A stretch of 64,000 bases of DNA from Akkermansia sp. (lineage in GTDB: Bacteria; Verrucomicrobiota; Verrucomicrobiia; Verrucomicrobiales; Akkermansiaceae). Positions 8,369 through 44,027 of this stretch are shown here, piece by piece. Position 1 is the stretch's first letter, and the number at the start of each line of letters is the position of its first letter. Location of the stretch: positions 186,001 through 250,000 of the forward strand of contig JALFWB010000031.1 in assembly GCA_022787425.1 (NCBI GenBank), in the 5' to 3' direction. A program made the position numbers and the translations under genes. The notes under the pieces were generated by a model that saw only the letters and a list, made by a program, of their open reading frames with translations, made no database searches and was not told the DNA's origin.

Positions 8369-10246
8369 CTAAGGTGACGTTTGGCGGCGGGGGAGACCCT
8401 TTTTGAGGTGGACGAGGAGAAGGGCGATGTCAGCGGGGGTGATGCCGGGAATGCGGGAGGCTTGGCCGAGGGTGGTGGGGCGGATGCGGTCAAGGCGTTG
8501 GCGTGCCTCGGTCTTGAGGGCGGGGATGGCCATGTAGTCGGTGTCGGCAGGGAGTCGACGCTCCTCCTGACGGCGAATGCGGTCAGCGGTGTCCCGCATG
8601 CGTTTGATGTGACCGGCGTAAATGATTTCCGTGACAACCTGCTCGATAACTTCAGAGGGGAAACGGGCGAGAATGTCCGGGGGTAGGTCCTGACACCTGT
8701 TCTCCGGACGGCGGAGCCACAGGTCCATGGGAATGCCGTCAACGCGGAGAGTTTTAGCCAGCTGAATACCCTCCGCTATACCCTGCAGGCGGCGGCAGGC
8801 CTCCTCGCCGCGCTCGGCGGGGATGAGGCCTATACGAGCCGCGAGAGGAGAGAGGCGCAGGTCTGCGTTGTCCTGCCGCAGGAGGAGACGCATTTCCGCA
8901 CGGCTGGTGAACATGCGGTAGGGCTCATCCGTGCCTCGCGTCACCAAGTCATCCACCATCACACCGAGGTAGGCCTCATCGCGGCGCAGGATAAGCGGTG
9001 CATCACCGTGCAGCGACAGCATAGCGTTGGCGCCCGCCAGCAGGCCTTGACCGGCGGCCTCTTCATAGCCGCTGGTGCCGTTGATCTGGCCGGCAAAGTA
9101 GAGACCGCGCACCCGCTTGGTCTCCAGCGTCGGCTGCAGCTCCGTGGGGGGAACGTAATCATACTCCACCGCGTAGCCGGGGCGGATGATCTCGGCCCGC
9201 TCCAAACCCGGAATGCTGTGTACGATATCTAACTGCGCCGAGTAAGGCAGGCTGGTGGAAAGCCCATTGAGGTAGAATTCATCCGTGCTGCGTCCCTCCG
9301 GCTCGATGAAGATCTGGTGCCGCTCCTTGTCGGCGAAACGCACCACCTTATCCTCGATGCTGGGGCAATAACGAGGGCCCGTCCCCTTGATAATGCCGCT
9401 GTAAAGCGGGCTGAACTGCAGGTTGTCGCGGATAATATCATGCGTCCGCTGCGTGGTGTAAGTGATGGCGCAGGGGAGCTGCTCCGGCGGGAAGTCCATA
9501 TCCGCCAAAAAATTCAGCGTACAATGCGGCTCCAGTGAGCGGCTCAGATTCGATAGGGACTGAGAACTAAAGAACGGAGGGAATGGGTCTCCCTCCTGAA
9601 GCTCCAATGAGCCAAAATCGATCGTGCTCCCCTTGATACGCGGCGATGTGCCTGTCTTAAAGCGCGCGAGCGGGAAACCGAGAGCCTCCAGCGATGCAGA
9701 AATACCGCTGGGCGCGCAGCCGAGACGCCCCCCCGGCAGGTGCGATTGCCCCACATGCAGCAGTCCGCGCATGAACGTGCCGCTGCACAGCACCACCCGA
9801 GCCGCCCGTATCTTCTGCCCCCACGACGTCACAATACCCGCCACAGCCCCATTCTCCACCGAAATCTCCGCCACCTCCGCCTGGAAAAGCTGCAAGCCCG
9901 GCGTTGTCTCCAGCAGCCACTTCATGCGCGAGCGATACGCCAACTTATCACACTGAGCACGCGGAGCCTGCACCCCAGGCCCCTTCGAGGCGTTCAGCAT
10001 GCGCCACTGCAGGGCCGTTGCGTCCGTGTTGAGTGCCATGGCCCCGCCCAAGGCATCGATCTCCCGCACCATGTGCCCCTTACCTAGGCCACCGATGGCG
10101 GGGTTGCAGCTCATCTGACCGATCGTGTCCAAGTTATGAGTGACGACTGCTACCCGCCCACCGAGGCGCACGGCAGCCAAAGCCGCCTCGATGCCGGCAT
10201 GACCGGCCCCGATGACAAGCACATCGTATATCGTCTCGCAAGCCAT
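8369..10246 (-). CDS. mnmG: tRNA uridine-5-carboxymethylaminomethyl modification enzyme MnmG (GidA)
   Basis: 625 residues, the usual MnmG length. The N-terminal FAD site is [12 protein letters not shown] (GxGxxG at residues 13-18), followed by the family signatures [44 protein letters not shown] and [12 protein letters not shown]. With MnmE it installs cmnm5 at the wobble uridine of several tRNAs, using FAD, glycine and tetrahydrofolate. It is the last gene of a tight leftward cluster purB - glycosidase - holA - mnmG (3 nt from holA). Its partner mnmE is at 42.7 kb. gidA genes are often found near replication origins. Confidence 0.97.
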
Positions 10247-20644: not shown

Positions 20645-23600
20645 TCAGAAGTTGACGCGGTAGCCGACGGAGCCGTTCACGCCCACCTCGTCGGCGTTGA
20701 AGTCGGCGTTCACATCGAAGAAGATGGAACCCGCATCCTGCGAGATCGGGATGGTGAGGGTGGCACCGAGTTCTGCACCGATGACTCCCTTTTCGTTGCT
20801 GCGGGTGCTGACCGTGGCGGTCGGAAGAGCGGCGAGGGCGGTGTTCAGCTTGTTGTAGCGGTCCCCGAAGTCCAGCTTGAGCAGGGCGCGGGCCTCGAAG
20901 ATGGAGGCGCGGTTGTACTCGTTTTCACCCACGATGCTCTGGAGTCGACCACCGAGGCCGAGGGAGAACTGCGTGAGGGAAGCTGAGTCCGTGGTCAGGC
21001 GGGTGTCCGCCGTGCCGCCTTCCGTCGCGCTGTCCAGCGAGGTGTGGCTGAAGCTCATGTTGAACAGGGGCTGCACGCAGGTGGTCGCCTCATCGTTCAG
21101 GGCGAAGGTTCGGGCTACCTCATACAGGAAGCCGAACATCATGCCGTTCGTCTTGTAGGTGGTCTTGCCTGCGATGCCCGGGATGGTGCGCTCCAGATCC
21201 ACATCGGCGCGGCCGAGGGTGCCCACGAAGGTGTTGACCCAGGAACCGGTCGAGACGCGGGCGAAGAGCGAGACGTACTGGGTGTCCAGGTCGCCCGTCA
21301 GGGTGTCGGCAGCCTTGCCGGTGTAGTCACCGAAGAGGGCGCTGACCGCCACGCCGAGGGTGAGGTTCGGGTTCACATCGACGTCAACACCGACCGTGCC
21401 GCCCCAGGAGGAGACTTGGTAACCTGCATCCGTGCCGCTCTCGCTGAGCTGGCGATAGTTGCCGTCACCGCTGATCCAGCCGTTGACGTAGGGCATGTCC
21501 TCGTTCACCACGCACTCATTCACGCCCATGGTGGTGGTGCGGTTGCGGATGGAGCGGAGTTGACGCTGCACATCGTCAGCCACCGCCAGCCCCACGGCGG
21601 ACAGCGAGCTGCCTGCCAGAGCCGCACCCAGCTTGTCCATCGCGCCCTTATTGCCGGTAGTAATGTGGTTATCCAGCATATCGAGCACCTGAGCCAACTC
21701 ACTGCCCGGAGTCCTTGTCTGCGGATCAAGGTGGAACATCGCCTTGCCCGCCAGCGCCAAGCCTGCCGTTCCGTTCGGCGTCTGACCACCATGCGCGACG
21801 TAGTATCCCGTGTTAGCATCGGCAATGATATCAACGGAACCCTCCACCGCGCGGAAGTTGGTGAAGTACTTGGTCATCCACGTGCAGTCGCTCATGTCCA
21901 CCATCACGTTGCTCACCGTGCAATTGTCCTGATCGTTCAGCACAAAGAGCAGGATGTCCTTCTCCTTGCCGCCCGCATTGAAATTCAGACCCGTGTTCTC
22001 CACTTCGTGCACCTTCAGCGTCACGTTCTCCAAGCTCAGGGATGCACCCGTGGTAACCGTGGGCTTGCCGTCAGTCTTCAGGCTGTTATTCACCTCCTTG
22101 GCGGAAACGGTGAAGTCCAGCTCGCCACCCTTCATAGAGGAGTCATTGACCAGCGTCACCGGGGTCGCCTTACCGTCAACTGTCTTGTTGTTCAGTAGTA
22201 CTGTCTCCCCCGTGGTGTCAATACCACCCAGAGTGTAACCTTCTGCGTCAGTATATTTCAGATCCACCGTACCTGCCTTGCCGATCACCATCAGGTTCGC
22301 ACTCGCGCGAAGAACCAGGTGTGCGTCCTTATCCGAGGTACCAACACGAACAGGGGCCCCATCTGCACCCGGTAGATATTCCCCGGTGTAGCTGCCTCCC
22401 TCGCGCACCAAGAGTGTACCGCTCACACCCAGAGTTGCATCCTCATCGTTCAGCGTGTCCATCTCGATGGTCCCGGAGTTGGTGGAGAGCGTCTTCTCGC
22501 TTACCTTGCCGTCCAGCACCACCAGCATTCCATCGCCCGCCACCGAGCCATCGCCCGTGAGGGAAGCGACTTTCACCGTGGAGCCGCTGCCGATCGTCAG
22601 CGTACCATCGTTGGCCATGGAGTCACCGGTCAGCGTACCGCCATCATTGACGGTCAATTCCGTGCCGCTGTGAATGGAAATAAGGCCGTTAGCCGTCAGC
22701 TCGTTCTGGACAATCAGCTTGTTCTGGACAATCAGGTTGCCGTGGATAATGCTCAGCGTGTTCGTGGTCACGGAATCTCCCGTGAGGGTGTAGGTCGTCA
22801 CCCCGGACTCGGCATCCACGTTGATACCCGTTACCGTCTGAGCCCCATGAACCTGCACGATATCGGAGCCGTTTCCCATGAAACTCACCGGACCATTGGA
22901 AGATTGCTTCGGACTAAAGCCATCGGACTCCGTCCAGCCGACTGTCGTGTCGCCGACCCATTCCGGCCCCATCGTCACCTTCGTCAGAGTAACAGCGGAA
23001 TCGGTTGCCTCGATGTAGAACTTCACACCATCCTTGACGTAAGATTTGTCACCATTATTCAAGGTGAAGGAGCCGGTGGAAGAACCGAAACCGGCCAACT
23101 TGTAAGCTGCGCCCTCTGCCACGGCATTGGACAGCAGATAGGTCCAATCATTGTTATTGATGATAAAATCCAGACCCTTCAGCTCACCGGATACCTTAAT
23201 CAGCGGCGTATTCGTATCGAGGCCAGCCAGAACACCATCACCGATCGTGATAGAAGTAGCCGTCATATCCCCGCCCACCGTCAGGGAACCGCCCAAGGTG
23301 AAAGCGGAGGCCGTCATGTTGTCGGTCAGGGTGGCCCCCTTATTCAGAGATGCCCCGTTGCCCAACTCCATGGACTTGCCGCTGATGGTGGCGTTTACCG
23401 TAGTATTCTCCGCAAACTCTACCGTGGAATTCGTACCCGTGTAACTACCGATCCAGTCCATGATCTTGTCCGTGAAGGACACAGTGCCGGTGGAGGTGTC
23501 CGAAATGCTGCCCGAGCCCTTCAGCTCGCCGTTGAAGGTGAAATCACCCGTGCCGCTGAGGGACAGGGTAGAGTCCTCCTTCAACTCCATATTCGCGTTG

Positions 23601-26600
23601 GTCGTACCCGTGCTTGCCTCCACTTCCCCGCCAAGGTTCAGGGTGCTCCCGGAGATGGCCAAGTTATCCAAATTGGCCAAGCTGCCGATCGTTGAATCGC
23701 TCAGGTTGATGGTACCGGTCCAAGTGTTGTCGTCCACCTCCGTTGCTGCTGCATCGTCTGCGTTGGCACCGGACATGTTGTAGACGCCGGAGCCCTTGAG
23801 CGTCATGTTTCCGGACTCAATCTTGACCTTTTCGAGCGTCACTCCTCCGTTGATGGTCAGAGAAGCGTTCTGCCTGACGATGATGCCCTTCTCTGCCGTT
23901 GACACGAGAGCATTATTCATCACCAGGTTGCCACCGTTCAGTACCAGACCTTCCGTTGTCGCAGCGTCAGCCGCGTTGCCGGCAGCACCATAGGTCACCT
24001 CCCCGGTGTTGATATAGTAGAGCCCGCTCGTGCCGGCCTTGGTAATCGTTGCCTCGCTGCCGTCTACGGTAACAGCGAGGTTGGTTTCCGATCCGACAGA
24101 AACCATTGTGCTTCCCGAAGTAATCCCCTCGAGAGTTCCGCTGCCCGCGATGATGGTGTAGACACCGGACTCATAGCCGTTACCATAGGTTCCTGCAGTG
24201 GGATCGTAGTATGATGATGTGGTCTTCTTGTCGAGCACGTCGAACGAGGTGAATGACAAATTGCCGCTGCCCATTTCGAACGTGCCGTCATTCTCGATAG
24301 CCTTACCCAAGGTGACTGAACCGTCAATCGTGAGCGAATTGCCGTTCGTCACCTTCAGGGTGCCGCTACCCTCCACAGTGCCGCCCAAACTCCTGGTCCC
24401 CTCGTTGGTCAATACCGCTCCCTCCTCCAAGGAGATGGTGCCGGCTGCGGCCGCAGTGTCGCCCGTCAGACTCAGCGTTGCGCCCTCCTTCACCGACACG
24501 GATCCGCTGCCGTCAGACATACCGGCCAATCTCAAGGTTCCCCCGGTCACCTCAACGCTTGTCGCCTTCTCCAAGGAAGTCAGGATCTCCGTTGTGCCTG
24601 AACTGACCAATTTCCCGGTACAGTCAAGTTTGTTAATCGTATTGTCACTTCCGGTCAGAGTTGTAGCACCATTTACCTCGAGGGTGTCGATGTAGTTCCC
24701 ATTGCCGGATATGAGAGCCCCACCGTTGTCGGTCAAAGTTGTGATGATGTTTGAAGAACCGGAGATAATCGTCTGTGAATTCGACGTCAGCGTCGTAATC
24801 TTATTCTCGTTTCCCGATATAACAGAGCCTCCGTTATCAATGAGGGTTTGAATGACGGAATTGCTGCTGCTGAGTTTGCTCTGACCGTTGGCTGTCAAGG
24901 TCGTGACTGTCAGAACTCCCCCAAATGCCGCGGACTTTCCATTATTCACTGTTACCGTATTTGCTGTTATGCTCTTCGAGAATGTTGCATCAGTGTCAGC
25001 TATTACGGATAAAATTCCGTTGTCGGTCGTGCGGATAATATCGATATTGATATCTCCTGCATTACCGGAAAAAGTAAGAGTTGAAGCCGACGTCGCATTT
25101 GTGCATTGTAACTCGAACTTTCCGGTCCATGCTGCTATGTCTCCGGTATAAGTGTAGTTCATGTAGCGAGCACCACTCGAGTCGATGTTTGCGACGTAGG
25201 TGCCGGAACCGGACCAACTTCCGGAGAACGTGGATGTGTTATTTGTGGTAGAGTTGGTGTATGCACTGTTAGTCCAAGCCTTTTTGGAAGCTGTGTCTGT
25301 AAGCTTTACATTGAAACTCTGAACTGACTGCCAGTTTTCTGCACTGCTATCATGGCTCCATCCATCTACTCCCTTGAATTCTAAGAGAGACCTCTGTCCG
25401 TTGACAAGCTCTCTGAAATAGCTTCCTTTGAGACCGCCGGAAATTGTGACAGTGCCCGTCCACTCCGGTCCCAGACTTACACCTGTGCCAAGAGAGGTAA
25501 TTGCTGCATTCGGGGATTCAATTACATAGTTTCCGTTTCCCGTCAGCGTCAGAGATTTGCCGGAATCCACTGTTACGCTTGATTTGTTCAGTACGGTGCC
25601 CGTGCCATCCAAACCAATCGTTGAATTCTTAATTACCTGAATCCCCTGCGACACTTGATCAGTGAGGGATGCCGTCATTCGGAGTGTGCCACCGTTGAGC
25701 TTCAGTTTGGTAGCATCAGCGATGCCTCCGGTGTTATCGGAGGGGGAACCATCATAAAGGACAACCCCGCTGTTGACATAATATACGCCGGAATCGGCAG
25801 TCAGCGTGGCAGAGATATACCACCCCTCGGAGTTCCCCTTGGTAATTGTGTATTCGGTTCCGTCTATGCTTACTGTCTTAATATCCTTCCCCCCCGTAAT
25901 CGAGGCGCCTGTCCCTTCATTGCGAACAATCCAGGCTTTTGTCGTGTCGATGTATCCATTGGCAGAAGTCTCTCCTTTGTCTATATAGCCGCAGAAATCC
26001 TGCACCGAAACACCTGACGTAACGGTGATGGCTGTGCTGTCACCGAAAGTCAATGATCCCGTGTTAAAGATTACTCCCCCCAACGTCAGAGCATCTCCGT
26101 TGAAGGAAAGAGAACCACCCCCTGTGTTGCTGACAGAACCGGCGATAGTTACAGAGTTGCCGAAAGAAAGGGAGCCTGCGCCGGAATTGGTGATGGAGCC
26201 TGCCGCGGTTACAGCACCGGTGAAGGACAGCGACCCGGAACCTTCCAGATAGAAGCCGGAAGCCAGAGTAGCATCAGCAGAGACAACTGCATTTTTACCT
26301 GCCGCTTGTCCGGCAGAGCTCACCGTAATGTAAAGCGAGCCTGCACTTGCGCCTCCCTTGGAAAGTGTTCCACTGTAGTCCTCGAGCTTATTGATATTCA
26401 GACGAAGGGAATCTCCTGTGGAATGGGTCGCAGAAAAATCTCCGCTTCCCGTCAGAAGTCCAACGTTCAGGACTCCTTTCCATACCGTCTCCAAGGTGCT
26501 ATTTTGCGTAATAGCGAGGGAGCCAATGGCGATGGAGTCGGTCGCCTTGTTAGAATCAAAGAATAGGATTTTGCCTCCGTTTAAGGCGACTGAGGCGATC

Positions 26601-28336
26601 GTGCCGGTGCAATATTGAAGTTGCAGCACAGCACCATTCTCAACAGTAAGATCAGAGAGGGAGAGCGTGTACGGTACCCCATCGCCCGTTCGGCCTACAA
26701 AAAGAGTACCCGCAGAGACGGTAATGTCACCTGAATACTGCAGAGATGGGTTGAGTAGCTGCAAAGTACCCGCTCCGGTTTTTGTCAAAACAGAATTTCC
26801 CCGAATATCACCGCTGATGGAGCCTTGCCCTTCATGAACATAGATGTAGGCATCACTCTCAAGGGTTACCGAACCCGTAACATTAGAATTCTTCCCTATG
26901 CGAAGTGCCCCGAATTTTGCTGTTTGCTCACCATTTTTATCGGTGTCCCAGCCGATGCCTGATATATTCAGAGATCCATTATAGGAAGCTATATTGTCGG
27001 CGATGAAGAATTGACCTCCGTTCTGTACAGTGACACTGTCGAAGAAATGAGATGAAGATTTGTAGTCATACCTGCCGCTCGATATGACCAAGTCTCCGGT
27101 GAATTCGGTTAATAAAGAGGAAGTCAGCGACATGTTCTCGTTCCCTCTATCTACACGGAGCGTGCCGTCACCGAGAAGAGGTGTCGCAGTATCTGTTTGG
27201 AGTATCAGGGTGCCATCAACCTGAATCCAAGCCGGGCCTCCGGTTATATCGTTGTATCTGATTACCTCCCCGGTGTGAACGAGATAATACTCTCCCTCAT
27301 ACGTTCCGACCCTGTCTGAAGATCCGAAATCGACCTGTACGCCGGCACCATGGAGGGTATACTCCACATTTTCACCCCGTATAACCGATCCATTGGAACC
27401 TTGAACCAAGCTGAAACTGCCCCCAAAGCCAATATACCCGGACGTTTCTTTATCCCCGGTTTCCGTGTAGGAATCCAAGTTCGAGAGCAAATCGACAGAG
27501 GTAGTTCCGGAAATTTTTAAGATAGAACCATCAACGAGAGTGATTGCCTTAGAATTATATAGATAACCGGACGACAACTCAAGAGTTCCTCCTTTGGTGA
27601 TTTGTATACCATCGGTGAAACTCAGGCTACCGGAACCGGAATTCAGCGTTAGGGTTTTACCTGAATTAATCTTCCAAGTTCCACTGCTCAGAACCTCAAT
27701 TTTTCCACCACTGCTGTTTAGCACTGTATCGACTCCGATGTCCATATTGACGCCACCCTCACCAGCAATGAGCTTGAAAGGCCGAGCCGGCCCGCTCCAT
27801 GCCGTTGCAATAGCCTTCAAAGAATATGAGGTAGCTTCTCCTGTCGTGATTAAGCCGCCAAGGGTGATCGGCTGGAAGGTGCATTCAAGGGAAATGTCTG
27901 TGGTGGAAGAAGAATTCAGTTTGAGCGTATGCCCATGCGTATGATTCACGCCTTCATCCAGAGCGAACAAATAATACAGGGCTTGTCCGCTATACTCCTT
28001 TGTTCCGTCCGTGTACGTTTCGACCGCAGCGTTCGATGTACCGTTAGAAGTAATCGTTAGATTATTTTTCGAATCAGATTGGGCATTTCCCTCAAACAGT
28101 GCTGTGTGGAATGCACCGGTAGATGCACCGATATACTCAATAACATAACCGGAGTAGGTTACGCCATCCACGGTTGTCTTCTCCGATGTAAGGGTCGAGG
28201 CTTCTGCCTGACAGAAGGCAAAAGCGGCGACACCAGCGGTGAGGGCTACACCGGAGACGGAGGGTGCAAAGGGGGAGATGAGGGCCATGCAGGCGAGCAA
28301 GGCCGACCGAAGGCGGGTGGGGAGGTGTAATTTCAT
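20645..28336 (-). CDS. Giant autotransporter (type Va secretion), beta-helical passenger
   Basis: The ATG at 28336 gives 2563 residues. The N-terminal signal peptide is long (MKLHLPTRLRSALLACMALI, cleavage near FCQAEA). The passenger has many autotransporter-associated beta-strand motifs (GSGSLSFTDGIQI, KTGAGTLQLLNPSLQYSGDITV, NTGSLTFGDSTAITV) and a block of 18-residue repeats. The last 280 or so residues form the outer-membrane barrel (GYQVSSWGGTVGVDVDVNPN, TKMIGAELGATL-like strands) and end in YRVNF, with the terminal Phe required by the BAM complex. It is likely a surface adhesin. No catalytic triad was spotted. Sequence coding for residues up to about 1250 is much AT-richer than the rest. 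Promoter and terminator are both clear. Confidence 0.93.
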   Translation of the reverse strand: MKLHLPTRLRSALLACMALISPFAPSVSGVALTAGVAAFAFCQAEASTLTSEKTTVDGVTYSGYVIEYIGASTGAFHTALFEGNAQSDSKNNLTITSNGTSNAAVETYTDGTKEYSGQALYYLFALDEGVNHTHGHTLKLNSSSTTDISLECTFQPITLGGLITTGEATSYSLKAIATAWSGPARPFKLIAGEGGVNMDIGVDTVLNSSGGKIEVLSSGTWKINSGKTLTLNSGSGSLSFTDGIQITKGGTLELSSGYLYNSKAITLVDGSILKISGTTSVDLLSNLDSYTETGDKETSGYIGFGGSFSLVQGSNGSVIRGENVEYTLHGAGVQVDFGSSDRVGTYEGEYYLVHTGEVIRYNDITGGPAWIQVDGTLILQTDTATPLLGDGTLRVDRGNENMSLTSSLLTEFTGDLVISSGRYDYKSSSHFFDSVTVQNGGQFFIADNIASYNGSLNISGIGWDTDKNGEQTAKFGALRIGKNSNVTGSVTLESDAYIYVHEGQGSISGDIRGNSVLTKTGAGTLQLLNPSLQYSGDITVSAGTLFVGRTGDGVPYTLSLSDLTVENGAVLQLQYCTGTIASVALNGGKILFFDSNKATDSIAIGSLAITQNSTLETVWKGVLNVGLLTGSGDFSATHSTGDSLRLNINKLEDYSGTLSKGGASAGSLYITVSSAGQAAGKNAVVSADATLASGFYLEGSGSLSFTGAVTAAGSITNSGAGSLSFGNSVTIAGSVSNTGGGSLSFNGDALTLGGVIFNTGSLTFGDSTAITVTSGVSVQDFCGYIDKGETSANGYIDTTKAWIVRNEGTGASITGGKDIKTVSIDGTEYTITKGNSEGWYISATLTADSGVYYVNSGVVLYDGSPSDNTGGIADATKLKLNGGTLRMTASLTDQVSQGIQVIKNSTIGLDGTGTVLNKSSVTVDSGKSLTLTGNGNYVIESPNAAITSLGTGVSLGPEWTGTVTISGGLKGSYFRELVNGQRSLLEFKGVDGWSHDSSAENWQSVQSFNVKLTDTASKKAWTNSAYTNSTTNNTSTFSGSWSGSGTYVANIDSSGARYMNYTYTGDIAAWTGKFELQCTNATSASTLTFSGNAGDINIDIIRTTDNGILSVIADTDATFSKSITANTVTVNNGKSAAFGGVLTVTTLTANGQSKLSSSNSVIQTLIDNGGSVISGNENKITTLTSNSQTIISGSSNIITTLTDNGGALISGNGNYIDTLEVNGATTLTGSDNTINKLDCTGKLVSSGTTEILTSLEKATSVEVTGGTLRLAGMSDGSGSVSVKEGATLSLTGDTAAAAGTISLEEGAVLTNEGTRSLGGTVEGSGTLKVTNGNSLTIDGSVTLGKAIENDGTFEMGSGNLSFTSFDVLDKKTTSSYYDPTAGTYGNGYESGVYTIIAGSGTLEGITSGSTMVSVGSETNLAVTVDGSEATITKAGTSGLYYINTGEVTYGAAGNAADAATTEGLVLNGGNLVMNNALVSTAEKGIIVRQNASLTINGGVTLEKVKIESGNMTLKGSGVYNMSGANADDAAATEVDDNTWTGTINLSDSTIGSLANLDNLAISGSTLNLGGEVEASTGTTNANMELKEDSTLSLSGTGDFTFNGELKGSGSISDTSTGTVSFTDKIMDWIGSYTGTNSTVEFAENTTVNATISGKSMELGNGASLNKGATLTDNMTASAFTLGGSLTVGGDMTATSITIGDGVLAGLDTNTPLIKVSGELKGLDFIINNNDWTYLLSNAVAEGAAYKLAGFGSSTGSFTLNNGDKSYVKDGVKFYIEATDSAVTLTKVTMGPEWVGDTTVGWTESDGFSPKQSSNGPVSFMGNGSDIVQVHGAQTVTGINVDAESGVTTYTLTGDSVTTNTLSIIHGNLIVQNKLIVQNELTANGLISIHSGTELTVNDGGTLTGDSMANDGTLTIGSGSTVKVASLTGDGSVAGDGMLVVLDGKVSEKTLSTNSGTIEMDTLNDEDATLGVSGTLLVREGGSYTGEYLPGADGAPVRVGTSDKDAHLVLRASANLMVIGKAGTVDLKYTDAEGYTLGGIDTTGETVLLNNKTVDGKATPVTLVNDSSMKGGELDFTVSAKEVNNSLKTDGKPTVTTGASLSLENVTLKVHEVENTGLNFNAGGKEKDILLFVLNDQDNCTVSNVMVDMSDCTWMTKYFTNFRAVEGSVDIIADANTGYYVAHGGQTPNGTAGLALAGKAMFHLDPQTRTPGSELAQVLDMLDNHITTGNKGAMDKLGAALAGSSLSAVGLAVADDVQRQLRSIRNRTTTMGVNECVVNEDMPYVNGWISGDGNYRQLSESGTDAGYQVSSWGGTVGVDVDVNPNLTLGVAVSALFGDYTGKAADTLTGDLDTQYVSLFARVSTGSWVNTFVGTLGRADVDLERTIPGIAGKTTYKTNGMMFGFLYEVARTFALNDEATTCVQPLFNMSFSHTSLDSATEGGTADTRLTTDSASLTQFSLGLGGRLQSIVGENEYNRASIFEARALLKLDFGDRYNKLNTALAALPTATVSTRSNEKGVIGAELGATLTIPISQDAGSIFFDVNADFNADEVGVNGSVGYRVNF
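24630..24900 (-). repeat. 18-residue (54-nt) repeats in the autotransporter passenger
   Basis: Four to five consecutive units of 18 residues, for example SVIQTLIDNGGSVISGNE, NKITTLTSNSQTIISGSS and NIITTLTDNGGALISGNG, occur in register. One unit matches one turn of a beta-helix. The nucleotide copies have diverged more than the protein copies. Confidence 0.7.
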
Positions 28337-28458
28337 GACTGATGAGAAAGAGCTGAGAGAAGCGGCGCAGGGGGTGCGGGACGCAGCACTGTGACGGCCC
28401 TTTCTCTCTTTCTCAAACCGGGAAGAGTGATACGCCGGCATCCCATGCGCACGCTCTG

Positions 28459-34616: not shown

Positions 34617-35438
34617 TTATTTTGCTTCCGAGGGAAAATGTGGCTCTATATTCAGGAAAGTAATCTCCGGGCGGCAGAATGTACGGAGGGGGAGGATGCT
34701 GGTGCCGAGGCCGCGGGTGGTGTAAATGGGCAGGCCGTTGTAGCGGTGGAGGCCGCGGGTGAGGACGGGTGGGGTGATGGAGTCCGGGAGCTTGATGGCC
34801 TTGCCGCCGGGCAGGCAGAGTTGGCCGCCGTGGGTGTGCCCGCAGACAGCCAGGAAGGCCCCGCTCGGGGCGAAGAGGGCACCGTAGGGGGTGTGACTCA
34901 GGAAAAGGAGCGGCGTACCGGGACGTTTCTCCGCAATAGGGCCGGTGGTGGGGAAGGTGTACATGCAGCGGACACCGGCCACATCTAACTCCGCGCCACC
35001 CGGGCGGATCGTGATGCGCCTCCCTTCCGCCAAGGGGATGCCGAGCCGGGCGAACATCGCTCGCGCCTCGGCCTCGCCGTAATAGTAATCGTGGTTACCC
35101 AGCACCGCCACGCAGGGCAGGCTTGTCAGCGGCCGCAGATGCTCCTCCAACTCATCAGCCGACATACTCGACTCCGCGTTGTGCCCGTTGAAATAGTCCC
35201 CCGCCAGCAAAACCGCATCCGGCTTGGCCGCCAGCACCCGGCGCACGATTTCATCCATGTAGTCCCCATCCCCCGGGCGCGCATGCAAGTCCGCCAGCAG
35301 AGCCAAGCATACCCCCCTGCCCTGCCACTCCTCACACGGGATGGGCACATGCGTCTCCTCGATGTACTCGCGTTCCCACCACGCGTACAAGAACACCGCG
35401 AGCAGCAGCAACCCATAGATGAACCAACGCAGCCTCAT
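34617..35438 (-). CDS. Membrane-anchored metallophosphoesterase (YaeI/LpxG-like)
   Basis: 273 residues. One N-terminal membrane helix (about residues 4-21) is followed by a calcineurin-like domain with all metal motifs: LADLH, GDYFNGH, GNHDYYYG, SHTP and CGHTHGGQ. This subgroup includes YaeI phosphodiesterase and the LpxG UDP-2,3-diacylglucosamine hydrolase, so a role in lipid A synthesis is possible, but the substrate is not shown. The start codon overlaps the ribD stop by ATGA at 35435-35438, indicating coupling. Confidence 0.87.
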   Translation of the reverse strand: MRLRWFIYGLLLLAVFLYAWWEREYIEETHVPIPCEEWQGRGVCLALLADLHARPGDGDYMDEIVRRVLAAKPDAVLLAGDYFNGHNAESSMSADELEEHLRPLTSLPCVAVLGNHDYYYGEAEARAMFARLGIPLAEGRRITIRPGGAELDVAGVRCMYTFPTTGPIAEKRPGTPLLFLSHTPYGALFAPSGAFLAVCGHTHGGQLCLPGGKAIKLPDSITPPVLTRGLHRYNGLPIYTTRGLGTSILPLRTFCRPEITFLNIEPHFPSEAK

Positions 35439-36463
35439 TGCAACAGCCCCTGCAAGATGATGTCACTCCCGCAATCCACCACCTGCTTGTCGACCAAGCG
35501 CAGCTCCCTCGGCAGGAAATCCCCCCCCGCCACGGTATCGCACCCGCCGCTCACATAAGGCGTGATGTTCTGCACCCACTCCTGCACCATCCCCTGCTCC
35601 AGAAAACGCCGCAGGAGCCTCGGTCCGCACTCCAGCATCAATTGAACCACCCCATGCTCCCGATACAACCGCTCAAGCAGCTCCCCGAGCCGGACGACCC
35701 CGGAGAACACCAAGGTGCGCTCCCGGTACTCATCCGTCAGCAGGCAGCAGTCGGCGGGTATCCCCTGCCCTGTCAGCACCACGCGCAGAGGCTGTTTCTT
35801 CTCCGGCGGGATGGGCAGGTGCGGGTTGCGTATCGTCAAGCGCGGGTTATCCGTGCGTACGGTGTGCCCGCCGACCAAGATGGCATCACTGCGCAGGCGG
35901 AGGTCGTGCGCGTACCGCAGACTCTCCTCGTTGCTCAACCAAGCCGAGCCCCGCCGGGTCATGCTGCCGTCCAGGGTTGTGGCCAGCTTAGCGACTACCC
36001 AGGGACGCCCATGCTCCATGGCATAGGCCCAAGGACGCAGCAGAACCCCGCAGGCGACTGCTTCAAGCCCGGCATGCACCTCAACGCCCTCAGCGCGCAG
36101 AAGGGCGTCTGCGCGGCCTCTGTGACGGGCGTTCGGGTCCACGCAGGCGTAGAACACCCGGCGGATGCCTGCCTCGATGATGGCATCCGTGCAGGCCGGG
36201 GTGCGGCCTACCGTGGAGCAGGGCTCCAGCGTGACGTAAAGGTCTGCTCCGAGCGGCGACTCCCCACGCTCCCGGGCGTCGGCCAAGGCCATACGCTCAG
36301 CGTGCGGTTTGCCGGCCTCGTGGTGGTACCCCCTGCCGATGATGCGCCCCTCTCGCACGAGAATGGCCCCGACCGGGGGATTCGGGGAGGTGGTACCGAA
36401 TCCCTTGTAGCCCTCGGTCAGGGCCTCACGCATCCATGCGGCTTGTTCAGATGTTGCTTCCAT
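35435..36463 (-). CDS. ribD: Riboflavin biosynthesis deaminase/reductase RibD
   Basis: 342 residues with both RibD domains. The deaminase part has zinc motifs HAERMAL and EPCSTVGRTPACTDAI; the reductase part (from about residue 150) has VAKLATTLDGSMTRRGSAWLS, ILVGGHTVRTDNPRLT and LECGPRLLRRFLEQGMVQEW. It deaminates and reduces the pyrimidine intermediate of riboflavin synthesis. No other rib gene is nearby. The gene starts at the left edge of the AT-rich candidate origin, and its reading direction is away from it. It is coupled to the metallophosphoesterase gene. Confidence 0.93.
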   Translation of the reverse strand: MEATSEQAAWMREALTEGYKGFGTTSPNPPVGAILVREGRIIGRGYHHEAGKPHAERMALADARERGESPLGADLYVTLEPCSTVGRTPACTDAIIEAGIRRVFYACVDPNARHRGRADALLRAEGVEVHAGLEAVACGVLLRPWAYAMEHGRPWVVAKLATTLDGSMTRRGSAWLSNEESLRYAHDLRLRSDAILVGGHTVRTDNPRLTIRNPHLPIPPEKKQPLRVVLTGQGIPADCCLLTDEYRERTLVFSGVVRLGELLERLYREHGVVQLMLECGPRLLRRFLEQGMVQEWVQNITPYVSGGCDTVAGGDFLPRELRLVDKQVVDCGSDIILQGLLQ

Positions 36464-36533
36464 GAAGAATACTATGGAATTTAAATTTAAAATTCATCAT
36501 CATCTGCCTTGTGAATAAGTGAATAAGTCACCT

Positions 36534-36556
36534 AAGTGCTTGATTCTCAACGACTT
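36534..36556. repeat. Copy of the TTGATTATCAA palindrome inside the candidate origin
   Basis: The arms AAGTGCTTGA and TCAACGACTT flank a 3-nt centre. It sits between the first two DnaA boxes and the third. Confidence 0.6.
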
Positions 36557-36682
36557 CGACCTTGAATATCTCGTGAATAAGATTGGTGACAAGGCAAACG
36601 GAATGTGCATAAGTCATTCATCAACAAGTTATTCACCATTTACTCACCCTCTTATTAACATATGATGTGGATAACATTGCTT

Positions 36683-36705
36683 AATCGTTGATTATCAATG
36701 ACTTA
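36683..36705. repeat. Copy of the TTGATTATCAA palindrome at the right edge of the candidate origin
   Basis: The right arm TCAATGACTT and the left TAATCGTTGA flank TTA. It overlaps the last codons of the lipoprotein gene whose stop is at 36695-36697. Confidence 0.6.
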
Positions 36706-37312
36706 GGAAGTCAACAAAGAAATAGAACGGGGCGATGACCGGCAAGAGAGCATTGGCCGCAAGAGTCGTCGGAGCATCCACTAGAACGAGATCCGCCGTA
36801 CCCAAAACAGAGCCTGCCATCGAGGGGGTGGACGGCTTGCCCAGGTTCACGAAAACAGCCCCACTCTCCCCTGCTGCCTCGGCCCGAACGCTCCCCGCCG
36901 GCCGCACCTTACCCCGCGCCTCTTCCGACGTGTAGTAGCGCTTGAAACGCTCCATCTCGCTGACCAGATCACCGATGTGCACATAGCCATCCTTCCGCTG
37001 CATTACCGCTGCGGTGCCCTCAGAGACCGGGATATAGATAGGCTCCTCCGACAGAGGACCGGCTTCACTGACGATGGGCGGACGCGTGTTACCCGTGAAG
37101 GTCTCATCTCGGATGATAGGATAATCTAACTTTGTGTTGACCTCGTGCGCCTTCAGGCACCAATCATTCCCGACCCGATAGAGACGGTCGCGCTCCAGCT
37201 TACCCATCGGTGTCGTTGAGCCGATCTGCTCCACATTCTTGTGCGTCTGCACATAGACACAGGAAGGCATCAACAGAACCCCCAGAGATAACAAGAATAG
37301 ACTTCTCTTCAT
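36695..37312 (-). CDS. Lipoprotein of unknown function
   Basis: The ATG at 37312 gives 205 residues with a lipoprotein signal (MKRSLFLLSLGVLLMPSC, lipobox LMPSC, C18). An upstream in-frame ATG at 37348 falls inside a terminator hairpin and is rejected. The mature protein has no recognised domain; it contains YIPVSEGTAAVMQRKDGYVH and ends in a hydrophobic stretch (ANALLPVIAPFYFFVDFLSH) that might associate with membrane. Its 3' end runs into the candidate origin. Confidence 0.65.
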   Translation of the reverse strand: MKRSLFLLSLGVLLMPSCVYVQTHKNVEQIGSTTPMGKLERDRLYRVGNDWCLKAHEVNTKLDYPIIRDETFTGNTRPPIVSEAGPLSEEPIYIPVSEGTAAVMQRKDGYVHIGDLVSEMERFKRYYTSEEARGKVRPAGSVRAEAAGESGAVFVNLGKPSTPSMAGSVLGTADLVLVDAPTTLAANALLPVIAPFYFFVDFLSH

Positions 37313-37326
37313 GAAACGGAAGCTAG

Positions 37327-37369
37327 CAAAAAAAAGGCGGTATGTCAAGAGTAACTCCTGACATACCGC
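37327..37369 (-). terminator. Rho-independent terminator of the TPR gene
   Basis: An 11-bp stem (GCGGTATGTCA with TGACATACCGC) is followed on the minus strand by a run of nine or more T. It lies between the TPR gene and the lipoprotein gene downstream. Confidence 0.85.
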
Positions 37370-37405: not shown

Positions 37406-37421
37406 CGTTCCACGTGGAACA
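37406..37421. promoter_or_regulatory. parS-like centromere site 1
   Basis: The sequence CGTTCCACGTGGAACA differs in one base from the parS palindrome TGTTCCACGTGGAACA recognised by chromosomal ParB proteins. It lies directly beyond the TPR gene stop codon, 0.75 kb from the candidate origin. Confidence 0.75.
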
Positions 37422-38816
37422 TCAGCGCCTGCGTTTCCTCGGCTTCCTTTTTTCCGTCTTCGGCTTATTCTTAGCCTCGATTTCCTCCGGGCTGAGGTAG
37501 TAATCCTTCTCCATGGGAGCGGAACGTGTCGGAATGAGCGGCGGCCGCAGATGGGTGGGCGGCGTGTTCAGGTCCCGGAAAAGCTCGAGAGTCTCCTTCC
37601 CTGTTCCGGGAACGACGAAGCACTGCGTGAGCGCCACAGCGAGCTTGCATGCCTGCGGACTGCGCTGCACCTCTGCATCGGGATTCACACAGAGTGCCAA
37701 CTCTCGGTCGGCCTGCTTACCCTTCTCCGCCGCAGCGAGGTAGAGACGATAGGCCTCCTCGTGTTCATTGCGGGAAGCACTGCGGCGAGCACGCAGGCAA
37801 TCCCCCGCCAGCTCACGGAAGAGTCGGCAGGTATTATCCGGAATGTACTCGCCCTGCTCCTTCGGCATGGCTGCCTTGAGGGCGGCAGAGATTTCATTGA
37901 TGCTCGGCGTCTCCTGTCTTCCCAGCAGCACACGGAGCGGGAGGGTTCGTGCCTCCCAGTTTTCGTAAAAGAGCGGATGCTTTCGGATGAGCTGACGCAC
38001 GGCGAGAGAATCTCGGTCCTTCCCGGCGCACCAGAGAGCGGTTGCTTTGTAGAGTAAAATACGCAGTCCCTCCCTGCCCTGTGGCTCGCAAAGAGCCAGC
38101 TCCTCCGTGAACTTCTCCGCTGCCGGGAGAAACTCTCCCGCACGGAACAAAAGGTGGGCATGCAAATGCAGTAGGCGCGGATGCCCCGGGAATAACTCCG
38201 CTGCCTTGGCCGCCGCCGTCCGCGCCGTCTCCGTAGGAGGCTCTGCCCATTCCTCTGCCAGCGCACGCAGGAAGCACACAGGCATGGACTCCGGGTGTGC
38301 GGCGTACAAAGCATCCGCCTCGCTCAGGGCAGCCTCCTGCTGTCCGGGTGCGTAATGCTTCAGCAGGGTCATCCAGCAGCGTGCATGAAGATCGGCGCGG
38401 TATTTCGCGCAATGCGCCTCCAGCAGACGGAGCGCCTCGTCGGATTCATCATTGGTCAGCGCGAGAAAAACATTCAGGTACAGCAGCTCCATCGGTGTCG
38501 CTCGAACGCTTGGAAGAAGCGCCTCCAGAGCACCTCGCAAAGCTCGCGATTTTTCCGTGATACCATTCTCGCGCTCCGCCAGCATGGCCGCTGCGTAGGC
38601 CACTGCACAATCCGGGTCCTCCCGAATGACTCGGTCGAACTGCTCCGCTGCTCGCTCATGGCAACCCAAGAAAAGCTCCGTCATCCCTTTGTTCAAAGCC
38701 TCGGCCGCAGCGGGGTTCGGTGTCGATGCCGTAATAGACATCTGCTGTGCCCCCGCGAAGGAGACACAGCAGATAAGCCCGATGACCGGGAATTGTTCCA
38801 TGTGGAACATAGTCAA
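37422..38816 (-). CDS. Exported TPR-containing protein
   Basis: Up to 464 residues; translation could start at 38816, 38810 or 38801. The N-terminus has a hydrophobic segment (FPVIGLICCVSFAGAQQ), probably a signal peptide lacking the usual basic residues. The body is helical with TPR-like pairs (ALNKGMTELFLGCHERAAEQFDRVI, AAEKFTEELALCEPQGREGL). The C-terminus is a highly basic tail (KPKTEKRKPRKRRR). No enzymatic motif is seen. A parS-like 16-mer lies within its first codons, so the start region is constrained by a second function. It follows argS by only 14 nt and may be co-transcribed with it. Confidence 0.68.
   Translation of the reverse strand: MTMFHMEQFPVIGLICCVSFAGAQQMSITASTPNPAAAEALNKGMTELFLGCHERAAEQFDRVIREDPDCAVAYAAAMLAERENGITEKSRALRGALEALLPSVRATPMELLYLNVFLALTNDESDEALRLLEAHCAKYRADLHARCWMTLLKHYAPGQQEAALSEADALYAAHPESMPVCFLRALAEEWAEPPTETARTAAAKAAELFPGHPRLLHLHAHLLFRAGEFLPAAEKFTEELALCEPQGREGLRILLYKATALWCAGKDRDSLAVRQLIRKHPLFYENWEARTLPLRVLLGRQETPSINEISAALKAAMPKEQGEYIPDNTCRLFRELAGDCLRARRSASRNEHEEAYRLYLAAAEKGKQADRELALCVNPDAEVQRSPQACKLAVALTQCFVVPGTGKETLELFRDLNTPPTHLRPPLIPTRSAPMEKDYYLSPEEIEAKNKPKTEKRKPRKRRR
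38794..38809. promoter_or_regulatory. parS-like centromere site 2
   Basis: TGTTCCATGTGGAACA, identical to site 3 and one base from the palindromic parS. It is embedded in the 5' codons of the TPR gene. Confidence 0.72.
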
Positions 38817-38830
38817 ATTTGGTTAAGGGA

Positions 38831-40585
38831 TTACATACGCTCGACCATTTCGATACCGAGCAAGCCCATACCTTGTTTCAGCACACGGGCGGTAAGCTCG
38901 CAGAGAATCAGACGGCTGCTGCGCACCTCGCCCTCGCTGCGAAGAACCGGGCAGGCTTCGTAGAAGCTGTGGAAGGCGCGTGCCAGGTCATAGAGGTAAG
39001 CGGCCAGAATGTTCGGGCGGCAGTCATCTAACGTAGCGGGCACGGTTTCGGAGTAGCGCACCAGCATGCGCGCCAGGTGGATTTCCGCGTCCTCGGTCAG
39101 TTGCACCTTTGCCGCCTGCGTCTCATCGGCATCGACCTTGCGGAAGATGGAACGCACACGCACATAGCTGTTCTGCAGGTAAGGCGCGGTGTCCCCGGAG
39201 AGAGACAGCATCTTATCCCAGTCGAAGATGTAGTCGCTGAGACGATTCTGGGAAAGCTCCGCGAACTTGATGGCACCGATGCCGACAGCCTTCGCGATGT
39301 GCGCCTTCTCCTCCTCCGGCAGGCTCGGGTTCTTCTCCTCAATGACTTTGGCGGCGCGAGAGACAGCCTCATCGATGACGTCCTGCAAGCTGACGGTATC
39401 CCCGGAGCGCGTTTTGAACGGCCGGCGATCCTTTCCGAGAATCGAGCCGAACGCCACATGACGGAAGTCACCGCTCACGCCGCGCATACGCTCGATGTCG
39501 AAGATCTGCTTGAAGTGCTTATCCTGGGGCGCACCGACAACATACCAAATAGAGTCGGCATGGAAGTTCGCGATGCGATAATCCAGCGTCGCCAGGTCGG
39601 TGGTCGCATAGAGGAAACCGCCGTCCGCCTTGCGGATGATGGCAGGCACGGGCACCCAGCTTCCGTCGCGCTGCACCAGGAAGGGATCGTTCTGCGGCTT
39701 GTGGAAACCATCGGAGAAGATACAGACCGCCCCCTCACTCTCACGGGCAATACCCTTGGCCAGCAGATCCTCAACCAAGGGACCGAGCGCATCGTTGTAG
39801 GCACTCTCGCCCAGCCAGTAATCAAACTTGATGTCGAGTTGGTCGTAGATTTTCTCCAGCCCCACCTTCGTGACGGCGATGCACTTCTTCCAAATTTCTA
39901 GGTTCTCACTGTCGCCGCTCTGCAGCTTCACGAGCTCCTCCTTACAGACGGGCAGCAGGGCAGGGTCCTCTTTGCAGCGAGAGTTCACCTCCTTGTAGAC
40001 CGAGAGCAGGGCCTCAATCGGATCGCTCTCCAAGTCCTCCTGCTTCAGGATGTTCTTCCACCCCCACAGAATCATACCGAACTGCGTGCCCCAGTCGCCG
40101 ATGTGATTGTCCGTGATGACCCTGTGGCCCATGAAGCGCGCCAAGCGGCCCAGTGTATCACCGATGATGGTGGAGCGGATGTGACCCACGTGCATCGGCT
40201 TTGCCACATTCGGGGCAGAGAAATCGATGACCAAGGACTTAGGCTGAGCTGCCACCGGCACCCCCAAGCGATCATCCGTCAGCATGTTTTCCGCACGCTC
40301 GGCATAGTAGCTCGGCTTGATGCGGAAATTGATGAAACCCGGACCCGCAATCTCTGCAGTCGCCACGGCGGATTCGCCCAAGGTCTCCACCACTTTGCCG
40401 GCCAGCTCACGCGGGTTCTTGCGGGCCTGCTTGGCCAGCACCATGGCTGCGTTGCTCTGGTAATCCCCGAAGCGCAGATCCTGGGATGCGGTGACACTCG
40501 GTGTAAAATTCTCCGGTAGGTCGGCACCCAGTACACCCTTGAGTGCCGCCGCCAATTGCTCGCTCAGTATGGACGGTATCGTCAT
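38831..40585 (-). CDS. argS: Arginyl-tRNA synthetase
   Basis: 584 residues, normal for bacterial ArgRS. The N-terminal Add-1 domain is followed by the class I HIGH-equivalent HVGH in SAPNVAKPMHVGHIRSTIIGD, the region DNHIGDWGTQFGML-like (here ending FGMI), SLQDVIDEA, and the C-terminal anticodon-binding helices beginning YVRVRSIFRK. It charges tRNA-Arg. Its promoter is a perfect consensus placed 9 nt before the ATG. The parS site 3 lies upstream of the promoter. Confidence 0.96.
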   Translation of the reverse strand: MTIPSILSEQLAAALKGVLGADLPENFTPSVTASQDLRFGDYQSNAAMVLAKQARKNPRELAGKVVETLGESAVATAEIAGPGFINFRIKPSYYAERAENMLTDDRLGVPVAAQPKSLVIDFSAPNVAKPMHVGHIRSTIIGDTLGRLARFMGHRVITDNHIGDWGTQFGMILWGWKNILKQEDLESDPIEALLSVYKEVNSRCKEDPALLPVCKEELVKLQSGDSENLEIWKKCIAVTKVGLEKIYDQLDIKFDYWLGESAYNDALGPLVEDLLAKGIARESEGAVCIFSDGFHKPQNDPFLVQRDGSWVPVPAIIRKADGGFLYATTDLATLDYRIANFHADSIWYVVGAPQDKHFKQIFDIERMRGVSGDFRHVAFGSILGKDRRPFKTRSGDTVSLQDVIDEAVSRAAKVIEEKNPSLPEEEKAHIAKAVGIGAIKFAELSQNRLSDYIFDWDKMLSLSGDTAPYLQNSYVRVRSIFRKVDADETQAAKVQLTEDAEIHLARMLVRYSETVPATLDDCRPNILAAYLYDLARAFHSFYEACPVLRSEGEVRSSRLILCELTARVLKQGMGLLGIEMVERM

Positions 40586-40645: not shown

Positions 40646-40661
40646 TGTTCCATGTGGAACA
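40646..40661. promoter_or_regulatory. parS-like centromere site 3
   Basis: TGTTCCATGTGGAACA, the same 16-mer as site 2. It is intergenic, 23 nt upstream of the argS -35 box and 7 nt from a copy of the 23-bp palindrome. Confidence 0.75.
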
Positions 40662-40959: not shown

Positions 40960-41721
40960 CTAATCCTCGAAGACGCGCCGTTCCACGGAATGGAGGAAGC
41001 TCTCCTCCTCCAGCATTTTCTCCACCGAGGTACCTTTACGCAGGGCCGTACTGCCTGCAATAAGCAGCCGCCCCATCCCGTTGGCCCACTCTTTGAGATT
41101 GGTGAGAGCCACTCCTTCAGACGTGTAGGCATCCTTCTCGTAGAAACGTGGATTACGGTGATTGTGGTCCTTGAAAGCCATCAGCAGCTTGTTGGTTCTC
41201 CCGTCGCGCGCGGTAGCCTCCACCACAATTCTGCCGGTCGTGAGATGCTCCACAATGTTACCTGTCCCCGGCACGGGACTGAAGAAACTGCCGATAGCAC
41301 CCAGCCAACGCGCCGCCGAATGCTGAGGGGTGAAGGAAACGACTGCGAGCTTGATACACAGAGTAGCCCCCTGAGGTTTGGGAGTGATCGTCCATCGGCA
41401 GTTCATCTCTTTGTTAATCGTAGCCAAGGCATTCGTGATACTCTCCTGCATGTACTCTTCCATTTTCTTCTGCAACAGGGCGGCTGCCTCAGGCTCATCG
41501 GCTTGAATGCGGCTCACATCCAGCGGTGCGATGTAAACGGTACCCCGCTTAACATTGCCGTAGCGAGAGGGGTCGCCCTCCAGCCAAAAGCCGGAGGCAC
41601 TCACCTTGGCAGAGCGCCGGAGCTGCACATCATACAGACCGGTTTCGGATTGCAGGTTAGTGCAGTGGGAAAGGAGACAGGCGGCGGCTAGGGCCGGGAG
41701 GAGTATCCGTATCGTGCGCAT
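40960..41721 (-). CDS. DUF3313-like lipoprotein
   Basis: The ATG at 41721 gives 253 residues with a lipoprotein signal (MRTIRILLPALAAACLLSHC, C20). The mature protein has the pattern of DUF3313-type lipoproteins: YIAPLDVSRIQADEPEAAA near the front, a central domain (CIKLAVVSFTPQHSAARWLGA), and IVVEATARDGRTNKLLMAFKDH towards the end. Function is unknown. A plausible promoter, TTGCAT - 17 nt - TATTGT, has its -10 box 9 nt before the ATG. Confidence 0.7.
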   Translation of the reverse strand: MRTIRILLPALAAACLLSHCTNLQSETGLYDVQLRRSAKVSASGFWLEGDPSRYGNVKRGTVYIAPLDVSRIQADEPEAAALLQKKMEEYMQESITNALATINKEMNCRWTITPKPQGATLCIKLAVVSFTPQHSAARWLGAIGSFFSPVPGTGNIVEHLTTGRIVVEATARDGRTNKLLMAFKDHNHRNPRFYEKDAYTSEGVALTNLKEWANGMGRLLIAGSTALRKGTSVEKMLEEESFLHSVERRVFED

Positions 41722-42592: not shown

Positions 42593-42701
42593 GTCTAAAA
42601 TGCGTGTTTAGGTAAAAAAAATCAGGAAGAGTAAAAAAATTTGCCTTTGAAAGCAAAATTTGCGCTTTTCACTCGGGGTAGAATATGCAACAATAGGGGA
42701 A

Positions 42702-44027
42702 ATGAACGGAACAACCATTGCAGCGCGTGCGACACCGGACGGGGTAGGGGCCTTAGCCATCCTGCGCCTCAGCGGCCCGCAGGCCCATGATGTGGCGTCC
42801 GCCGCCTTGGGCGGCAAGCCCTTGCAGCCCCGCCTTGCGACCTTTGCCCGGGTGCGGGCGGAGGACGGCAGCGTGCTGGACGAAGTGGTGGCCACCTACT
42901 TTGCGGCCCCCGCCAGTTTTACGGGCGAGGACGTGGTCGAAATCTCCTGCCACGGCGGCATCCTCGTCACGGAGCGCGTGCTGGAGCGCCTCTTCGCCTG
43001 TGGGGCTGTTCCGGCGGAGCCCGGCGAGTTCTCCCGCCGCGCCTTCGAGAACGGCAAGCTCGACCTCACCCGGGCGGAGGCCATCATGGACATCATCCAC
43101 GCCGGGAGCGACCTCGCCCTGCGCGCGGCTCAGCACCAGCTGCAGGGCGCCATCGCCGACAGGGTGCAGGTCACGCTGGATGGCTTGATTGACGTTGCGG
43201 CCCATGTGACCGCCTACATTGACTTTCCGGAGGAGGACATCCCCCCCGCCACGGTGGAGAGCCTGGGCGGGCAACTGCAGGCCGCGGAGGAGCAGGTGAA
43301 TGCGCTGTTGGCTACGGCGGAGGGCGGGCGTTTGCTCCGCGAGGGGGTGCGCACGGTCATCGTCGGTGCCCCGAATGTGGGCAAATCCAGCTTGCTGAAC
43401 ATGCTGCTGGGTTACGACCGCGCCATCGTCAGCGACCGCGCCGGCACCACGCGCGACACCATCGAGGCCCCCCTCAGCCTCGGCGGTCTCTGCCTGCGTC
43501 TCATCGACACAGCGGGGCTGCACAGCAGCGAGGACAGCTTGGAGCAATGCGGCATGGAGCGCAGCCGCCGGGCCCTCGCCGCCGCCGACCTGGTGCTGGA
43601 GGTAGCGGATGTGTCGCAGCCGCCGGTACCCCTTCCGCCCCCGCCACCCGGGGCGCATAGCCTGCTCGTGCTCAACAAGGCGGATTTGCCGGAGCACCCC
43701 GCCTGGGCGGGCAAGCCCGGCATCCGCATTTCCTGCGCGCAGGGCAGGGGGCGGGAGGACCTCGGGCAGGCCATTCGCAGCCTCTTCCTGCGCAGCCTGG
43801 GGGAGGCCGACACCGTGGCTGCCGTCAACACGCGCCACCGCTTCGCCCTGCAACAGGCCGCCGAGGCCCTCCGCCGCGCTCGGGCAGGATTGTTCGCGGG
43901 GGAGAGTCCGGATCTCATTGACATCGACCTGCATGAGGCGCTGGATGCCCTCGGCAGCATCACCGGACGGGTGGATACGGAGGACATCTTGGACCGCGTG
44001 TTTTCGACCTTCTGCCTGGGCAAGTAG
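42702..44027 (+). CDS. mnmE: tRNA modification GTPase MnmE (TrmE)
   Basis: The ATG at 42702 gives 441 residues starting MNGTTIAARATPDGVGALAI. The N-terminal tetrahydrofolate-binding domain is followed by a G domain with G1 VGAPNVGKSS and G3 LIDTAGLH, and by the C-terminal CLGK motif that is required for tRNA modification. It forms the complex with MnmG (8.4 kb) that makes cmnm5U34. The G domain is slightly short with a proline-rich loop (PPVPLPPPPPGA). The leader is short with AGGGGA before the ATG. mnmE is commonly near oriC. Confidence 0.96.
   Translation: MNGTTIAARATPDGVGALAILRLSGPQAHDVASAALGGKPLQPRLATFARVRAEDGSVLDEVVATYFAAPASFTGEDVVEISCHGGILVTERVLERLFACGAVPAEPGEFSRRAFENGKLDLTRAEAIMDIIHAGSDLALRAAQHQLQGAIADRVQVTLDGLIDVAAHVTAYIDFPEEDIPPATVESLGGQLQAAEEQVNALLATAEGGRLLREGVRTVIVGAPNVGKSSLLNMLLGYDRAIVSDRAGTTRDTIEAPLSLGGLCLRLIDTAGLHSSEDSLEQCGMERSRRALAAADLVLEVADVSQPPVPLPPPPPGAHSLLVLNKADLPEHPAWAGKPGIRISCAQGRGREDLGQAIRSLFLRSLGEADTVAAVNTRHRFALQQAAEALRRARAGLFAGESPDLIDIDLHEALDALGSITGRVDTEDILDRVFSTFCLGK

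Follow-up and report, generated by a model that had tools for sequence, protein, structure and literature searches.

The window analysed here is a 64,000-nt stretch of the Akkermansia sp. genome GCA_022787425.1 (contig JALFWB010000031.1, 186,001-250,000, plus strand), a draft of 2.5 Mb in 56 contigs, of which the one bearing the window measures 268 kb. Between ribD and a gene for a small putative lipoprotein, it contains an intergenic cluster of DnaA boxes next to an AT-rich element, and palindromic parS-like sites follow beyond the lipoprotein gene. The features are, in window coordinates:

35435-36463, minus: ribD (deaminase plus RibD_C by Pfam), the single flanking gene kept beside the candidate origin genus-wide
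36474-36706, minus (ribD sense): candidate oriC core, AT-rich, carrying DnaA boxes and the AT-rich element
36479-36491, no strand: ATTTAAATTTAAA, probable unwinding element (DUE), with AATTTAAATTT or variants as its conserved form
36493-36504, minus: GATGATGATGAA, a conserved (GAN)3-4 trinucleotide repeat, separated from the tandem boxes by five bases
36510-36518, minus: DnaA box TTATTCACA, exact, tandem pair member 2, pointing at the AT-rich element
36518-36526, minus: DnaA box TTATTCACT, one mismatch, tandem pair member 1, beside the AT-rich element
36572-36580, minus: DnaA box TTATTCACG, one mismatch
36604-36612, minus: DnaA box TTATGCACA, exact
36629-36637, plus: DnaA box TTATTCACC, one mismatch
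36652-36660, plus: weak DnaA-box-like TTATTAACA, one mismatch
36666-36674, minus: DnaA box TTATCCACA, exact
36695-37348, minus: small putative lipoprotein gene without a Pfam family
37406-37421, no strand: parS 1, CGTTCCACGTGGAACA
38794-38809, no strand: parS 2, TGTTCCACATGGAACA, inside a 464-aa ORF (37422-38816)
40646-40661, no strand: parS 3, TGTTCCACATGGAACA, directly upstream of argS
41640, no strand: point at which cumulative GC skew is lowest over the entire 268-kb contig

The DnaA-box cluster and its surroundings

A sequence-only reading of the window had proposed a chromosomal origin at this place, and the elements on which it was built were recovered. The island of ~230 bp is indeed AT-rich in a GC-rich context (34% GC for 36474-36706 vs 60% for the entire window), and the AT-richness of its 233 bp is matched by 17 of 63,767 window positions, all of them at the same place. 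The three exact boxes claimed at 36510, 36604 and 36666 are the only exact copies of TTATNCACA in the window, all on the minus strand, where shuffling would lead one to expect 0.79. The one-mismatch boxes at 36518, 36572 and 36629 are likewise present, with the TTATTAACA site at 36652 as an addition, and the AT-rich element said to lie at one end of the island corresponds to ATTTAAATTTAAA, a candidate unwinding region adjoining the boxes, as expected of an oriC. The draft genome as a whole holds 56 exact copies of TTATNCACA in 2.5 Mb, a density that predicts 0.0004 triples within 165 bp; the cluster thus exceeds chance. Among the boxes listed for the draft there is no second comparable triple, and a check of these 56 exact boxes for a stronger cluster elsewhere in the genome revealed none.

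The three suspected parS-like sites within 4.2 kb also proved real. They conform to the palindrome TGTTCCACRTGGAACA (two exactly, one with a single end mismatch), lie 0.7-4 kb from the boxes and are the only palindromic parS in the draft, an origin-proximal grouping that would suit both an oriC and the centromere of a ParABS system. ParABS homologues are recorded in 12 of 12 genomes, A. muciniphila included, in a previous study (PMC10197239). Of the two genes mentioned as lying nearby, mnmE does so (42660-44027, plus), but mnmG (8369-10246, minus) is 26 kb away. Elsewhere in the window, a 2598-aa ORF (20645-28441, minus) in a stretch of lower GC (~50%) resembles a repetitive surface autotransporter.

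An adjacent dnaA, common at origins yet not obligatory, is missing here, as had been remarked: the dnaA of this genome resides on a different contig (C19:2571). The dnaA locus was considered as an origin and rejected, as the first 8 kb of C19 contain no DnaA-box cluster. A GC-skew minimum near 36.5 kb had been named as a check, and over the 268-kb contig the cumulative minimum falls at 41,640, ~5 kb away, with the keto-skew minimum at window position 40,410; these minima are 4-5 kb off the boxes, and skew is noisy at the scale of the window.

Conservation of the site in the genus

Homologues of the AT-rich, box-bearing region were found upstream of ribD across the genus. In 52 congeners, this position holds 125 exact boxes, compared with 1.35 expected from shuffling. 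At least two exact boxes just upstream of ribD occur in 55 of the 66 congeners taken as having the ordinary DnaA (D-type DnaA being assumed for unaligned congeners without a match in the serine scan described below), while eight of the 66 have none, several of these with one-mismatch boxes. Gene order around ribD varies by subgroup; ribD and the boxes remain together. Six ordinary-type ribD-side origins without an exact TTATNCACA, namely L015 (G035), L005 (G019), L161 (G025), L165 (G026), L227 (G087) and L236 (G089), often have several TTATTCACY or TTATTAACA-like sites, and may possibly have relaxed their box sequence.

For skew on whole chromosomes, we sampled 20-kb stretches of four complete congeners (G004, G015, G052 and G073, the last with parts masked), and in all four the skew inversion coincides with a cluster of boxes and parS at the homologous site; an exact parS lies near every ribD-side box cluster of these genomes. 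In G004, samples up to 1.20 Mb have negative skew and those from 1.28 Mb onward positive skew; the cluster is at 1.238 Mb (boxes at 1,237,894-1,237,948) and dnaA at bp 422, i.e. 1.24 Mb from the boxes. The flip falls at 425 kb in G015, whose dnaA is at 2.81 Mb (a single sample, taken at 460 kb, dips slightly below zero), and at the box cluster, at 973 kb, in G052. The skew of G073 flips at 958.5 kb; this genome has a local cumulative skew minimum at 958,534, ~100 bp from boxes at 958,637-958,744, parS at 956,703 and 962,244, and dnaA at ~1.9 kb, about 0.96 Mb from the candidate origin. Position at a skew minimum is therefore found through the sampled complete congeners as well as, 5 kb off, through the contig of the window itself. 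Annotation by dnaA position would miss such an origin, as had been anticipated, because the numbering of G073, G052 and G004 starts at dnaA, 0.96-1.24 Mb away.

G073, a single contig of 2,664,102 bp, matches Amuc_1100 at 100% (PDB entries of that name served to verify the query), and its length is that of the type-strain genome of A. muciniphila. The RibD of the window species is ~48% identical to that of A. muciniphila, and by its sequence the window species is only a distant relative of the latter. Members of the A. muciniphila group (L062, L117, L149, L248) have, at a distance of 2.7-3.5 kb from their main cluster of boxes, a further parS-like site, TGTTCTACGTGGAACA, with an exact TTATTCACA no more than ~5 bp from it.

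Outside the family, though in the same order, G063 has parS and a skew flip at ~484-540 kb and its dnaA at bp 7 (L133, G063:C1:478001-498000). The stretch sampled there shows neither ribD nor a clear box cluster near the parS and skew flip. The origin of G063 is probably located away from dnaA, too, and the separation of origin and dnaA may therefore extend beyond the genus.

Trinucleotide element and altered boxes

The tandem box arrangement is present in most congener origins. Read in the sense of ribD, the tandem pair nearest ribD (TTATTCACTTATTCACA in the window) is followed after a few bases by GATGATGATGAA, or by GAAGAAGAAGG in the A. muciniphila group, and then by a sequence like AATTTAAATTT. 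A (GAN)3 repeat after the last box occurs in 45 of 67 origins vs 0.4 in shuffles, a test that is non-circular as it was anchored on the last box alone (a version anchored on the repeat was partly circular). Three NAN triplets within 16 bases on the box-sense strand were counted in 60 of 67 origins, where shuffles gave 36.3, whereas the strand used by the canonical DnaA-trio showed no enrichment (25/67 vs 22.0 shuffled). This strand test does not support a reading of (GAN)n as a canonical DnaA-trio. With the basal unwinding system (BUS; PMC8287927) the arrangement shares tandem boxes facing the AT-rich side, a short spacer, repeated NAN trinucleotides and an AT-rich tract, and one or two DnaA boxes adjoin the element, as in that system. 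The BUS also has three or more 3'-NAN-5' trios in the first 16 bp leading off from a box, and these are not enriched here; the Akkermansia (GAN)n is carried by the box-sense strand, on which it leads off from the boxes in the 5' to 3' direction. This element may have a functional role, and Akkermansia possibly employs something like a DnaA-trio, but with the opposite strand polarity.

Besides, five species (G040, G001, G003, G031 and G085) retain the ribD-side region, the (GAN)n element and the nearby parS, yet lack TTATNCACA there, their boxes following TTNYTGACA instead. The loci concerned are:

L006 (G040), L013 (G001), L020 (G031), L021 (G003), L222 (G085): altered-box candidate origins
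L202, L208, L203, L199, L215: DnaA loci of the five-species clade

In G040, TTATTCACA has become TTATTGACA, in four copies; G031 and G003 have three copies each of TTGCTGACA; TTACTGACA also occurs as an altered box in the clade, and altered boxes are fewest in G001. Among 37 aligned DnaAs, exactly those five carry Ser for Asp in the motif GGRDHGTV, which becomes GGRSHGTV or GGRSHATV, at the position of the near-universal D433 of E. coli DnaA domain IV. Four of the five clade members read GGRSHATV, with Ala two residues after the Ser, and these are the same four that show the further change in their boxes. A scan of all 76 genus members for the Ser signature, with a longer DNA pattern, found no further dnaA and gave one stray match outside dnaA, in G016. 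Phylum-wide, the DNA pattern used for the Asp-to-Ser change was too degenerate to be informative, its matches being mostly chance-like. The base contact of D433 has been assigned to box position 7 (PMC8235120); the base changed in the boxes of the clade is position 6, next to it. The window species belongs to the ordinary DnaA and box type.

The five species form one clade with full support, in which G040 branches first. Box type and DnaA type are associated (Fisher P = 1.6e-6, a value that ignores kinship among five Ser species of a single clade), and correlation statistics therefore cannot carry the link between box and DnaA. The change is one evolutionary transition and not a repeated one, and the strength of the case lies in the coincidence of a change in the recognition helix with a change in the sites. 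We consider it reasonably likely that this clade has changed its DnaA code, in a natural and possibly stepwise switch of specificity, and that the genus possesses the trio-like element of opposite polarity.

Interpretation and relation to known origins

Taken together, the boxes of relatives, the parS sites and the skew inversion strongly support the proposed origin between ribD and the lipoprotein gene, and 36474-36706 is very probably the chromosomal replication origin (oriC) of an Akkermansia species, located away from dnaA. Boxes at the ribD-side site appear to track the DnaA type, which supports this reading. It is improbable that the boxes instead form a DnaA-titration or regulatory cluster of the datA or DARS kind, with the true origin a few kb away near the skew minimum and parS. 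Box clusters can have regulatory roles and the skew minimum of the contig is 4-5 kb distant, but no second box cluster is present from 36.7 to 42 kb, the local skew minimum of G073 comes to within ~100 bp of its boxes, and conservation of the AT-rich element next to the tandem pair extends over the genus. We give even less credence to the idea that the boxes are mere chance matches in an AT-rich ribD promoter or leader. Although the region is directly upstream of ribD and in its sense, chance would hardly account for the excess of exact boxes in 52 congeners (125 vs 1.35 expected), for the way in which complete genomes couple them to parS and a skew inversion, or for boxes that follow the type of DnaA.

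Boxes, AT-richness, parS, skew inversion and conservation in the genus are computational observations, and an origin at this site could operate as follows. DnaA, encoded elsewhere on the chromosome, would bind the TTATNCACA cluster between the lipoprotein gene and ribD, and the tandem pair at 36510-36526 would direct it to the GATGATGATGAA plus ATTTAAATTTAAA stretch. There, oligomers of DnaA would form and the duplex would be opened by them, allowing helicase loading and the departure of two forks, while organisation and segregation of the newly made origins would fall to ParB at the three parS sites, 0.7-4 kb off.

For A. muciniphila YL44, an earlier study used parS, GC skew, Hi-C and coverage to find an ori-parS region; it notes that an origin does not always sit at dnaA and that its placements of origins are backed by coverage (PMC10197239). 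That work concerns the same genus and follows the same logic, and an Akkermansia origin away from dnaA is therefore not new in principle; its maps are at 5-kb resolution, and the part of it available does not describe boxes, the link to ribD or the architecture. Another verrucomicrobial origin found by GC skew, that of the Methylacidiphilum infernorum chromosome, lies 250 nt upstream of dnaA (PMC2474590), whereas dnaA is far away in Akkermansia. Box consensus and DnaA recognition also vary by lineage in epsilonproteobacteria, but there the 433-434 dyad is described as highly conserved, and position 6 of the box, within the core TTCAC, remains C (PMC5043019), in contrast to the Ser at the D433 position and the G at box position 6 of the Akkermansia side clade. 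Thermotoga maritima offers another natural DnaA box far from TTATNCACA, namely ACCTACCAC (PMC10316083), yet it represents a deep lineage, while the Akkermansia change took place within one genus and at an otherwise homologous origin. In the literature searched, a limited set of open-access papers, we found neither a ribD-linked Akkermansia origin nor a description of the origin at sequence level, its genus-wide architecture or the clade whose boxes and DnaA are altered; DoriC may contain a computed entry. The novel part is the putative box/DnaA switch.

Akkermansia genomes numbered from dnaA start ~1 Mb off, which knowledge of the true origin puts right, together with the reference point for coverage-based estimates of growth rate in gut metagenomes. 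Besides, the aligned origins of the genus constitute a natural experiment, in which one clade appears altered in both an initiator recognition residue and its sites. How the code of an essential protein-DNA interaction can change thereby becomes a question open to direct testing, for which a pair of short DNAs and a pair of domain IV proteins would be enough.
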